Positions 11,803-17,186 are shown, counted from the first letter of the stretch. The stretch is 43,959 nt of DNA from Candidatus Tepidiaquacellales bacterium OLB5 (GCA_001567545.1 LLZO01000134.1:1-43959), one strand, 5' to 3'. Program-made: numbers and translations. Notes: generated by a model not told the origin, from the sequence alone.

Positions 11803-11831
11803 TTGACATACAAAACAAAAAATGATATAAT
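11803..11831 (+). promoter_or_regulatory. Consensus sigma-70 promoter (TTGACA-N17-TATAAT)
   Basis: TTGACA at 11803-11808 and TATAAT at 11826-11831 are both exact consensus boxes with the optimal 17-base spacer, followed by an A-rich leader to the ATG at 11877. It contrasts with the TTG-N20-TAnnTTTG promoters elsewhere here, although TTG and TA keep the same distance. The downstream gene has codon use suited to high expression. Confidence 0.8.
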
Positions 11832-13478: not shown

Positions 13479-13508
13479 CCCGTTTCCTGAAAAGGAAACG
13501 GGTTTTTT
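13479..13508 (+). terminator. Rho-independent terminator after paralogue 1
   Basis: A 10-base-pair stem (CCCGTTTCCT / AGGAAACGGG) is closed by a GAAA tetraloop and followed by six Ts. It lies 27 bases after the stop codon, so paralogue 1 is probably transcribed alone. Confidence 0.92.
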
Positions 13509-13634: not shown

Positions 13635-15212
13635 ATGAAAACAATTTTTCTTATACTTTGTTTTCTTTCTGTATCCACCGGTAAGCTTTACCAGCAAACT
13701 TATCAAACTTCTGCCGGGTTTGCACCGCAAGATTCAGATCAATCTTTTTATCAGCATAATCCATCATCCGATATGATAGGCACACGCGCATTTGTGCAGC
13801 ATTCGGTATCGTCCTCGTTTCAGTTCGGTAAATCATTTATGGAAAGCTGCGCTGTTACAAATGTTGGCTCTCCGTTTACAATAACTTTTCCGGGGGGGTT
13901 AATGTACAGAAACGGTATTGTTTATTCCTGGAACCAGTCTTCGCCTTACCAGCTTTGGTCAATTGATACAGTTACCGGGATTCATACACTTGTATTTAAT
14001 ATGACAGGTGTACCGCAGGTAAATTATACAGGCATGACTTATGATGGAACAACAGTTTACGGAATTTCTACATCACTTACCCAATCACAAATATTTTCTG
14101 TTAATATGACAACCGGTGTATGCACTCCAATAGGTGCCCCGTCAACAATTTGCAGCGGGGCAATATCCATTTCCTGCAGAAAGTATGCCGGCAGCAGGCT
14201 GTTTGTTATTGATATAGTTAATGATAATTTATACCATGCAAATAAAACCACTGGTGTATTTACTCTGTTAGGTCCGCTTGGAGTTGATGCAAACTTCGGG
14301 CAGGATGCACAGTTTGATAATAATGACGGAGCTTTGTACTGGATGGCTTATACAACCGGTCCGCAGCTCAGAAAATTTGATACTTCTACCGCCGGCAGTA
14401 CATTACTGTGTACTTATCCAAGCCAGGGAACAGGGATTGCGCCGATTGATATTGTTTATTACCCGCCTCCTCCAGGAATACAGCAAACTTTTTGCAGAGG
14501 AGGTTTAAATCTTCCGATAAATGATCACTCAACATTATATGATTCGATATTTGCAGTACTTGGTGATGATTGTATAGTTTTAGATGTTAATGTCAGAATA
14601 GATACAGTCATACATACCTGGGATTCAGATCTGAGGTTTTATCTGAGAAGGGGAAACGTAGGTGCGCTGATAATAAACTGGGTTGGAGGATCGGGCGACA
14701 ATTTTATCGGTACGGTATTGAATGATTCAGCATTAAATCCAATTAGCTCGGGTACTGCTCCGTTCACAGGCTCATACCGTCCTCAAAATCCGCTGGTTGT
14801 CTTTAACGGAAATCCAGGCTCAACCGGCAGATACTGGAAGCTGGCTATTACAGATACTGCCGGAGGTGATACCGGTACATTAAAAAGATGGTGTATTATT
14901 ATTATGTATAACTGCCCTGTTGGCGGTATTCAAACGATTGAAATTCCTAATTATTACTTTCTCAAACAGAATTATCCCAACCCGTTCAATCCCGCAACTA
15001 CAATAAAATTCGGTATTCCCGAAAGCGGAGATATACGGCTGGTTGTGTATGATATTCTTGGCAAGGAAATAAAAATGCTGATGAATGAATACAAACACCC
15101 GGGCACTTATGAGGTGAATTTTGATGCATCGGCGCTTTCTTCGGGAATATATTTCTATTCACTGCAAACGCAGCGGGGAACAGAAACAAAACGTATGCTG
15201 CTTGTTAAGTAA
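13635..15212 (+). CDS. Secreted P-domain protein with T9SS sorting domain, paralogue 2
   Basis: This 525-residue protein has the same architecture as the gene before it. A signal peptide (MKTIFLILCFLSVSTG) leads into a propeller-like region with 'PGGLMYRNGIVYSWNQSSP' and 'NKTTGVFTLLGPLG'. A short proline linker, a P-domain ('WDSDLRFYL', 'GGSGDNFIGTVLNDSA', 'GDTGTLKRWCIII') and a T9SS domain (NYPNPFNP, ending 'TKRMLLVK') follow. Its codons are ordinary for the window, unlike paralogue 1. From about residue 435 to the stop it is nearly identical in DNA to paralogue 3, and that identity continues about 125 bases past the stop, while the bodies of the two genes differ much more. Paralogue 3's P-domain is instead closer to paralogue 1, so the genes are mosaics. 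Confidence 0.92.
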   Translation: MKTIFLILCFLSVSTGKLYQQTYQTSAGFAPQDSDQSFYQHNPSSDMIGTRAFVQHSVSSSFQFGKSFMESCAVTNVGSPFTITFPGGLMYRNGIVYSWNQSSPYQLWSIDTVTGIHTLVFNMTGVPQVNYTGMTYDGTTVYGISTSLTQSQIFSVNMTTGVCTPIGAPSTICSGAISISCRKYAGSRLFVIDIVNDNLYHANKTTGVFTLLGPLGVDANFGQDAQFDNNDGALYWMAYTTGPQLRKFDTSTAGSTLLCTYPSQGTGIAPIDIVYYPPPPGIQQTFCRGGLNLPINDHSTLYDSIFAVLGDDCIVLDVNVRIDTVIHTWDSDLRFYLRRGNVGALIINWVGGSGDNFIGTVLNDSALNPISSGTAPFTGSYRPQNPLVVFNGNPGSTGRYWKLAITDTAGGDTGTLKRWCIIIMYNCPVGGIQTIEIPNYYFLKQNYPNPFNPATTIKFGIPESGDIRLVVYDILGKEIKMLMNEYKHPGTYEVNFDASALSSGIYFYSLQTQRGTETKRMLLVK

Positions 15213-15339
15213 TAAAAATAAAGTTATTAGTGGCACAGACATTCCTGTCTGTGCAAACTAACTGAAAGTGTGTGGCTTCAGGTATTTATCTAAAAGACTT
15301 TCAGCCCGGCGCGTATCAGGTGAATACCTGGCACCGCAT
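14937..15339 (+). repeat. Duplicated block, copy 1: sorting-domain end plus downstream repeat
   Basis: This block of about 400 bases covers the T9SS sorting domain of paralogue 2 and the repeat after its stop. It matches 16691-17092 at a constant offset of 1754 bases through the whole coding part and well past the stop, with one single-base gap and only scattered differences. Upstream of the block the two genes are clearly less alike. Confidence 0.85.
15221..15339. repeat. Intergenic hairpin repeat, copy 1
   Basis: This is a repeat of about 120 bases made of nested inverted repeats. First comes a 9-base-pair hairpin GCACAGACA-TTCC-TGTCTGTGC (15233-15254). CTGAAAGT and its complement ACTTTCAG then frame an inner region, and an imperfect CAGGT-GAAT-ACCTG hairpin follows (about 15317-15330). 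There is no open reading frame and no transposase. It resembles a REP/MITE-like palindromic repeat. Copy 2 lies at 16975-17092. Confidence 0.8.
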
Positions 15340-15351
15340 ATTAAAATTATG

Positions 15352-15377
15352 TTAGTAACACAGACTTTTATGTCTGT
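15352..15377. repeat. Partial third copy of the hairpin repeat
   Basis: These 26 bases align with the start of the hairpin repeat (TTAGT..CACAGAC......TGTCTGT) and keep the stem ACAGAC / GTCTGT with a T-rich loop. It lies 36 bases before the start codon of paralogue 3 and looks like a decayed remnant. Confidence 0.55.
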
Positions 15378-15412
15378 ACTGCTTCAGTATTAAAAATGTA
15401 AATTTAATTATT

Positions 15413-16966
15413 ATGAAAACTATTACAATTTTTTTGATAATTCTCAATATAACATTTTTATTCTCACAACCGGAAAAACATTCTGTTGGCAGAGCTCCGG
15501 CAAATGATAATTTACCCCTGGTAATCCAGCCTAATGATTTTGCAATTGGCACAAGGGCTTTTGTCCAGATTGCTTCTTCAACAAATTTCCAGTTCGGGAA
15601 ATTATTCATGGAAAGCTGCACCCCAACCCCTATAGGTGTTGCTATGCCTATTACATTCCCCGGGGGACTTGTTGAACGAAACGGGGTTATATACACATGG
15701 AACCAGTCTGCACCTTTTCAATTATGGGCAATTGATACCGTTGTTGCGACACAAACGCTTGTTTTCAATATGACAGGTGTTCCGCAGTCAAACCTTACAG
15801 GTATGTGCTGGGATGGTACAACTATGTATGGTGTTTCAACATCTATAACGGCTTCACAGATCTTTACCGTTAATATGACTACAGGTGTATGCATACCGCT
15901 TGGCACAGCATCATCTGTTTGCGCTGGAGCAATCAGCTTAATGGGTACTCGATATGTTAATCACAGTCTCTTCTCGCTTGATATCGTTGCAGATAACTGT
16001 TATAAATGGAATAAATCCACAGGTGCAGTTACACTTGTTGGTTCATTAACACAGAATATCAACTTCGGTCAGGATGGCGGTGTTGATCCAAATGATAATA
16101 AATTCTACTGCATGGCATATACAACTGCTTCACAGTTAAGGATACTTGATACAACTACAGGCGCTTTAGGACCCGCTTTATGTACTTATAATGCACAGGG
16201 AACAGGGATGGCTTTGATGAATCGTATTAATATTCCAAGTCCAAATGAAACAATTTGCAGAAACAATCTTATCTTACCAATTAATGATCATTCTTGGATA
16301 AGAGATTCTGTATTTATTAATATTCCCGGTGGTATAATAATTACTGACGTAAATATAAAAATTGATACAGTATTTCACACATGGGATTCTGATCTAAGGT
16401 TTTATCTTAGCAAGGGCAGCACCAGCATTCGTATAATAAATTCCGTCGGTGGTTCAGGTGATAATTTTATCGGAACTGTATTAAATGATTCTGCAACTGT
16501 TCCAATATCGTCAGGTACTGCTCCGTTTACCGGTTCATTTATTCCGTCTTCACCATTAACCCCGTTCAACGGTCCTTATAATTCCGGTTTCTGGCGACTT
16601 TCAATATCTGATACTGCTACTGGTGATACAGGGGTTCTAAATAAATGGTGTATTAATATAATATATTCAGTATGGGGTGGTGTACATTCGATTGAAATTC
16701 CAAATTACTATTTCCTGAAACAGAATTATCCCAATCCGTTTAATCCTGCTACAACAATTAAATTCGGAATTCCCGAAAGCGGTGATATACGGCTGGTTGT
16801 TTATGATATACTGGGAAGGGAAGTAAAGGTGCTGATGAATGAATACAAACACCCGGGAACATATGAAGTGAATTTTGATGCATCGGCGCTTTCTTCGGGA
16901 ATATATTTCTATTCGCTGCAAACGCAGCGGGGAACAGAAACAAAACGTATGCTTCTTGTTAAGTAA
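15413..16966 (+). CDS. Secreted P-domain protein with T9SS sorting domain, paralogue 3
   Basis: This third tandem paralogue has 517 residues. The signal peptide is MKTITIFLIILNITFLFSQ. The propeller-like region again has 'PGGLVERNGVIYTWNQSAP', 'YDGTT'-type and 'DTTTG' repeats. The P-domain has 'WDSDLRFYL', 'NSVGGSGDNFIGTVLNDSA' and 'FIPSSPL..FNGP', and in these stretches it is closer to paralogue 1 than to 2. The T9SS domain, however, is almost identical to that of paralogue 2, including the DNA past the stop codon. This suggests gene conversion or unequal exchange of the 3' end. The start is the ATG at 15413; no clear Shine-Dalgarno sequence or -33/-7 promoter was found between the repeat remnant and the start. 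Confidence 0.92.
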   Translation: MKTITIFLIILNITFLFSQPEKHSVGRAPANDNLPLVIQPNDFAIGTRAFVQIASSTNFQFGKLFMESCTPTPIGVAMPITFPGGLVERNGVIYTWNQSAPFQLWAIDTVVATQTLVFNMTGVPQSNLTGMCWDGTTMYGVSTSITASQIFTVNMTTGVCIPLGTASSVCAGAISLMGTRYVNHSLFSLDIVADNCYKWNKSTGAVTLVGSLTQNINFGQDGGVDPNDNKFYCMAYTTASQLRILDTTTGALGPALCTYNAQGTGMALMNRINIPSPNETICRNNLILPINDHSWIRDSVFINIPGGIIITDVNIKIDTVFHTWDSDLRFYLSKGSTSIRIINSVGGSGDNFIGTVLNDSATVPISSGTAPFTGSFIPSSPLTPFNGPYNSGFWRLSISDTATGDTGVLNKWCINIIYSVWGGVHSIEIPNYYFLKQNYPNPFNPATTIKFGIPESGDIRLVVYDILGREVKVLMNEYKHPGTYEVNFDASALSSGIYFYSLQTQRGTETKRMLLVK

Positions 16967-17092
16967 CAAAAATAAAGTTATTAGTGGCACAGACATTCCT
17001 GTCTGTGCAAACTAACTGAAAGTGTGTGGCGTCGGGTATTTATCTAAAAACTTTCAGCCCAACGCGTGTCAGGTGAATACCTGACACCACAT
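16691..17092 (+). repeat. Duplicated block, copy 2: sorting-domain end plus downstream repeat
   Basis: This is the partner of 14937-15339. It includes the sorting-domain coding region of paralogue 3, its stop codon and the hairpin repeat. Confidence 0.85.
16975..17092. repeat. Intergenic hairpin repeat, copy 2
   Basis: This is the better preserved copy. Hairpin GCACAGACA-TTCC-TGTCTGTGC lies at 16987-17008 and hairpin GTGTCAGGT-GAAT-ACCTGACAC (9 perfect base pairs) at 17066-17087. CTGAAAGT and ACTTTCAG pair around the middle. All three loops or spacers are conserved with copy 1, which suggests a folded RNA or a DNA palindrome under constraint, or simply recent duplication. Confidence 0.8.
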
Positions 17093-17186
17093 TTAAAATA
17101 TTTTAAATCAGGGATCATTTGAAGTCAATGATTTCTGTGCTTTTTATTTTTATTGATTATAACCTAAAATTTGCCTAACCTTGTAA

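Follow-up and report, generated by a model that had tools for sequence, protein, structure and literature searches.

Why should two neighbouring genes with strongly diverged bodies share 3' ends that are nearly the same? The question is raised by P1, P2 and P3, three tandem paralogues on one strand of a 43,959-nucleotide stretch of DNA (the window), which is a single contig (C134) of a 3.27 Mb assembly that is 93% complete. P1 (11877-13451, + strand) encodes 524 amino acids, P2 (13635-15212, +) 525 and P3 (15413-16966, +) 517. Each has a C-terminal type A sorting domain of the type IX secretion system (T9SS), identified by both TIGR04183 (46.9-51.4 bits against a cut-off of 23) and PF18962 (43-45 bits against 27). 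The domain lies at about 13212-13436 in P1, at 14973-15197 (+) in P2 and at 16727-16951 (+) in P3. The same genome was searched for one component of the T9SS translocon, SprA, and the SprA family was found above cut-off in one 2207-aa frame. On these sequence matches P1-P3 are most likely cargo that an Ignavibacteria species exports through its type IX system. The T9SS sorting tag is common to a hundred or more proteins per genome in these bacteria. An earlier description of the three as P-domain genes, made from the sequence alone, found little backing in Pfam, since the P-domain model (PF01483) reached 20.1 bits in P1, below its gathering score of 21, and matched neither P2 nor P3. The bodies may be distant P-domain relatives.

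The bodies of P2 and P3 are 61% identical, the sorting domains 90%, and the ∼130 nt beyond the stop codons about 93%. In sliding codon-aligned windows the identity is 37-74% in the body and then, across the final ∼275 coding nucleotides, 86, 88, 88, 88, 91, 96 and 98%. Downstream of the stops, successive 40-column windows give 97, 95 and 90%, followed by 35%. The homogenised block occupies 14935-15340 (+) at P2 and 16689-17093 (+) inside and behind P3, a length of about 405 nt comprising the edge of the linker, the sorting domain, the stop codon and ∼128 nt of 3' DNA. The two copies lie 1754 nt apart, or 1753 beyond a 1-nt indel at 15296. A single-changepoint likelihood test placed the 5' border 35 nt upstream of the NYPNPFN motif, at 14935 in the window, with a support interval of 36 to 31 nt (lnLR 54.3; 0/1000 permutations were equally good). 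The 3' border, at 15340/17093, coincides with a 14-nt gap. The sequence-only reading had described 3' ends that are nearly identical to about 125 bases past the stops at a constant offset, much less similar bodies, and a sharp 5' border near 14937/16691. These observations stand, with uneven identity along the genes and a significant breakpoint no more than 5 nt from the border that it had proposed. It had also placed the P-domain region of P3 nearer to P1 than to P2, and in columns 1080-1200 the identities are indeed 66-74% and 52-67%, respectively. Collapse of a repeat during assembly can be ruled out because the P2 and P3 tails differ by about 10%.

Identity is not even within the block. 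Up to 15114 it is 86.4%, and from that point to 15276 it is 98.2%, a step matched by 3/5000 permutations, so that 15114-15276 (+), which pairs with 16868-17030, forms a younger inner part. Third-position identity climbs toward the stop (58, 74, then 93%, against 43% in the body). Given the step and the third-position rise, the simplest reading is that the block holds two or more exchanges that differ in age.

Could purifying selection on the sorting-domain protein have kept the tails alike with no exchange of DNA? Its role in export keeps the domain conserved, and over the first third of the block P2 and P3 differ almost entirely at third positions, as such selection would have it. The synonymous sites of the domain are alike as well, however: pS is 0.70 in the body (dS about 2) and 0.37 in the sorting domain (dS 0.52). 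Orthologue pairs from sister genomes, which are Ignavibacteria genomes and mostly MAGs, served as controls and were flat in five cases (pS of body/sorting domain: P1/G004_d 0.39/0.39, G004_d/G012_d 0.31/0.25, G002_1/G008_1 0.39/0.46, G004_b/G010_b 0.56/0.57, G004_c/G010_c 0.62/0.65). Exceptions with a lower sorting-domain pS were G007_2/G009_2 (0.46/0.24) and G004_b/G012_b (0.67/0.39). Selection on the protein also leaves aside the roughly 130 non-coding nucleotides common to both tails, and it sits badly with the P1 sorting domain, which has the identical job and is just 63% identical to those of P2 and P3, as well as with the other sorting domains of the genome, which reach at most 77%.

The trees conflict in the same direction. 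In the body tree P2 falls with its positional orthologues, the 'c' genes in G004 and G010 (support 100), and the P3 body takes a long separate branch, whereas the sorting-domain tree makes P2 and P3 sisters (support 92). In AU tests the body and sorting-domain data each rejected the other's tree (p 2.5e-50 and 1.1e-60). The grouping of the a and b genes of G012 is weaker and was left unresolved by the nucleotide tree. The sorting domain of P2 and P3 is a mix of 'c'-type and 'a/b'-type residues. The synonymous contrast and the tree conflict together mean that constraint on the protein is insufficient by itself to explain the likeness of the tails, and we consider selection alone extremely improbable.

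The trees bear equally on a body swap, in which a new body recombined upstream of the existing tail of a recently duplicated gene. Such a swap would yield an identical pattern of identity, and gene pairs in G002 and G008 have largely unlike N-terminal parts followed by a shared P-domain and sorting domain. The P2 body, on the other hand, groups with its positional orthologues and is therefore old at this site. P3, with no clear orthologue of its body, may have undergone a swap; as an account of the locus we think it unlikely. Exchange with an unsampled lineage bearing the same tail may also have taken place, and its pattern would equal that of exchange within the array. Simple unequal crossing-over finds no support, since it would leave near-identical bodies and the dS between the P2 and P3 bodies is about 2. 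Of the two mechanisms first put forward for the shared ends, gene conversion is thus supported, its 5' border being sharp, and simple unequal exchange is not.

Homogenised tails recur outside the window. The same array is present in three sister genomes. At this locus the a and b genes are 93% identical in the sorting domain and 62% in the body in G012, and 88% and 63% in G004. Genes 1 and 2 of G002, at the same locus though non-orthologous, show 95% and 62%; their shared block begins 492 nt upstream of NYPNPFN, including the P-domain region, and reaches 76 nt beyond the stop, through a terminator-like hairpin. Unrelated tandem arrays give similar values (sorting domain and body, respectively: contig C142 of G009 95% and 62%, C166 of G004 88% and 62%, C8 of G012 88% and 52%), and in the G009 array the first 109 nt after the stop, with a terminator-like hairpin, are about 98-99% identical. 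A linkage survey covered 129 sorting domains from loci picked by similarity to P2, hence a non-random sample, and compared pairs from the same genome. Identity of at least 80% was reached by 23/179 pairs within 20 kb and by 0/1194 other pairs (Fisher p 1e-21), so that near-identical sorting domains occur between neighbours only. Homogenisation of the tail in the P2/P3 array is not a one-off.

We therefore hold it very probable that tandem neighbours overwrite each other's 3' ends by local gene conversion, with at least two layers at this locus. P1-P3 would be old tandem paralogues whose bodies have diverged to synonymous saturation. Their sorting domains would have been kept similar by a common job, being read by the secretion machine, and would be the sole stretch in which neighbours remain alike enough for homologous recombination. 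Non-reciprocal exchange between neighbours would then renew the identity of the 3' ends repeatedly. The tracts would begin near the junction of body and sorting domain, or at a point farther 5' if the P-domains resemble each other too, and extend to the stop or beyond it, taking along the 3' DNA: a terminator elsewhere, REP palindromes in the window. We infer that the conversion is RecA-type, that REP is a passenger, and that a feedback operates in which constraint keeps up homology; the sorting domain would stay a recombination site because the shared export job keeps it alike.

The 3' DNA in the P2 and P3 tracts has a character of its own. A REP palindrome of family A, of the GTGG-GCACAGACA-TTCC-TGTCTGTGC type (GTGGCACAGACATTCCTGTCTGTGC), lies behind P2 at 15230-15254 (+), and its counterpart behind P3, also family A (GTGGCACAGACATTCCTGTCTGTGC), at 16984-17008 (+). 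A second element, a REPIN-like palindrome pair, follows at 15267-15342 (+) behind P2, with the P3 copy at about 17021-17095; hairpins related to this pair were seen on contig C327 of the same genome. The transcript of the 130 nt 3' of P2 and P3 is predicted to fold strongly (z-score -5.5). The downstream repeat had no match in Rfam, and scans for terminators and promoters gave matches no commoner than in shuffled sequence, single strong sites aside. Family A has 16 copies in this genome at three or fewer mismatches (0 for the reversed control), mostly after or between unrelated genes. Many copies carry a GTAG tag, the window GTGG. On contig C131 two inverted copies flank a gene for a 149-aa RAYT-like transposase that scores below thresholds (69.7 bits against a curated 80, and 19.5 against 23 for Y1_Tnp), and family A copies also surround a homologue in G007. 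Among the genomes searched, family A and two further palindrome families, B and C, occur only in those of this genus.

These palindromes had suggested that sorting domain and repeat form a movable cassette, perhaps one moved by a REP/RAYT system. The block does end with palindromes of a RAYT-associated family, and the same palindromes are found inside other sorting domains. Against this, the combined block has two copies in the genome, those of P2 and P3; a genome search for further sorting domains followed by the repeat gave a next best match outside the array of 73-74% over 100-120 nt. None of the unlinked pairs reaches 80%, and other copies of the REP lack a matching sorting domain. Because family A is dispersed in this way, the repeat is an independent REP-like element carried in the exchange tract and is not half of a cassette. 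We give the cassette next to no credence. Nor was a REP found in the tracts of the homogenised pairs of G004, G012 and G009, which speaks against the cassette and also gives no support to a required role of REP in the conversion.

In this genome two family A matches lie inside sorting-domain genes. Taking the three unrelated families together, 46/164 classified copies are read in frame within a single hairpin loop of the sorting domain, about 4/164 lie in other ORFs, most of them doubtful, and the remainder are mainly intergenic. For families A and C copies were counted in G000, G002, G004, G007 and G008, family C in G007 being represented by part of its copies; family B was counted at 30 loci in nine genomes. 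Family A has 20/99 distinct copies in sorting domains (19 by rule and L200 by eye, in five genomes), all on the sense strand and in the single frame VAQTFLSV, 21-22 residues past the N of NYPNPF. Outside sorting domains, 76/99 are intergenic or in short ORFs and 3/99 in other, mostly short, ORFs. Family C (GACGACCC-N3-GGGTCGTC) has 15/35 copies in the same loop, in the frame ETTR-x-VVS, and 1/35 in another ORF. Family B (CCCCTCTTGAGAGGGG) has 11/30 there, in the frame PLLRGV and always 16 residues past the N; other ORFs hold none of its copies. Against a background of 300 sorting domains per genome, a generous figure equal to about 2.4% of the genome, the enrichment in the loop has a binomial p < 1e-10 for each family, although related genes may have inherited their copies from a common ancestor, so that the independence of the events is overstated by the test.

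Where two copies encode the same amino acid, codons are identical in 82-91% of cases in the palindrome and in 52% in the flanks, most of these loci having been found by DNA pattern. In the structure predicted for one family B sorting domain (mean pLDDT 80), the residues encoded by the palindrome occupy a low-confidence turn that joins the first two long strands, 23-30 and 44-51, a position consistent with a sequence alignment against 8glj, a sorting domain of solved structure. Some sorting domains (L136, L140) have QTLLSV or QTLLTV at the same place, encoded by different DNA. For this reason it is conceivable that family A might have been born from sorting-domain DNA. As a general account such a birth fails, as it could not hold for three unrelated families at once.

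The residence of three palindrome families in the loop is what was measured. A wider reading, which we offer tentatively and would not yet favour, is that sorting-domain DNA is a semi-independent layer of the genome, exchanged by neighbours, with its first hairpin loop a specific habitat for unrelated palindrome families that are kept at the DNA level in one frame each. The palindromes, whether within the domain or directly after it, may in turn help to trigger exchanges. Since export is typically followed by removal of the sorting domain, inserts in the loop would spare the mature protein.

In concerted evolution by gene conversion, tandem neighbours are more alike than their orthologues within a bounded tract. 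The P2/P3 tails share both features with the classic cases and differ from them in that it is mainly the export-signal end and its 3' flank that is affected, recurrently across species and loci. Domain-limited concerted evolution is thus a known kind. A search of the open-access literature found it described nowhere for T9SS sorting domains, and matches for T9SS together with gene conversion, concerted evolution or REP palindromes were judged off-topic; nor did this search yield a paper joining T9SS with domain shuffling. Several palindrome families in one loop of one domain family look new.

A close likeness is with the KLIKK proteases of Tannerella forsythia, which are encoded by six T9SS-type cargo genes lying in two clusters. 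The catalytic parts of the six differ, their C-terminal sorting domains are virtually identical, and the authors left the origin of this to further research (PMC4404884). There too clustered cargo genes combine unlike bodies with near-identical sorting domains. By analogy, the identity of the KLIKK tags could be the outcome of the same process as the P2/P3 tails. KLIKK are proteases of a pathogen in which exchange and selection were not set against each other, whereas synonymous sites, borders, trees and recurrence were tested here. The gingipain and haemagglutinin genes of Porphyromonas gingivalis undergo domain rearrangement, in the main a matter of adhesin modules and of alleles exchanged among strains (PMC5266723). 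There too, genes encoding T9SS surface proteins exchange individual domains, but here it is the sorting domain that is exchanged, and between tandem neighbours. For GTAG REPs and RAYT, REPs inside genes are known, and GTAG repeats were listed in phyla other than Bacteroidetes and Chlorobi (PMC3733652); ours resemble them as short palindromes, some GTAG-tagged, that flank a RAYT-like gene. The classic in-frame case is that of the Rickettsia palindromic elements, ∼150 bp long and in unrelated genes (reviewed in PMC10969869). Some of our palindromes are also in frame inside genes; unlike the Rickettsia elements they are short, belong to three families and occupy one loop of one domain family.

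If neighbouring genes overwrite each other's tags whatever the cargo, this would explain the virtually identical tags of the Tannerella proteases. If tags are exchanged separately, trees made from full-length cargo proteins mix two histories. The loop palindromes would give an unusual example of repeat DNA resident within one domain across many proteins, and they make it testable whether the secretion machine tolerates repeat DNA or uses it.

Within T9SS sorting domains, a single hairpin loop holds in-frame copies of palindromic repeats from three unrelated families. When copies were classified by position, 20/99, 15/35 and 11/30 of those in the three families were located in the loop, while about four copies across the three families, mostly doubtful, were assigned to ORFs other than sorting domains. 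Loops with a palindrome occur at loci L137, L138, L140, L144, L214, L268, L281, L294, L297, L301 and L313, among others. The OLB5 genome itself has loop palindromes on contigs C96 (2104-2123) and C104 (9351-9369 and 11753-11770). Additional palindromes occupy that loop position in L144, GGAACGGTCGCGACCGTTCC, and L138, TCTCCCCCTGACAGGGGGAGA; these sequences suggest that more than three palindrome families reside in the loop.

Family A is associated with RAYT-like, transposase-like genes. Inverted family A palindromes lie on both sides of such a gene in OLB5 (C131:1239-1769, locus L043), whose match falls below the curated cut-off, and of another in genome G007 (C181:39195-40047). The homologue on C73 of G009 is interrupted by stops or a frameshift.

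Directly upstream of P1, the first of the three tandem paralogues, is a perfect (12/12) sigma-70-type promoter match (TTGACA, 17 nt, TATAAT; window 11803-11831), and a strong terminator-like hairpin lies downstream of the gene (13479-13502). The promoter scan gave no comparable match upstream of P2 and P3. In several sister assemblies the contig breaks off within the P-gene array or right before it (L095, L096, L099 and L089). Recent exchanges could account for this by leaving behind repeats impassable for short-read assembly.

A further tandem T9SS cargo gene family is present in G025, from a different family of the same order (C2:426000-444500, L103; C12:91000-98500, L105). Its sorting domains are 96-99% identical with bodies as low as 57%, and in some pairs the 450 nt preceding the sorting domains are 90-100% identical.

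The C-terminal part of the sorting domain also has inserts of variable length at a second site, just ahead of the last KKM-LIK strand (L319, L301, L310, L210 and L136), for example LEVNDPSAGSGRGFTETKRM. This second site may be another repeat habitat.
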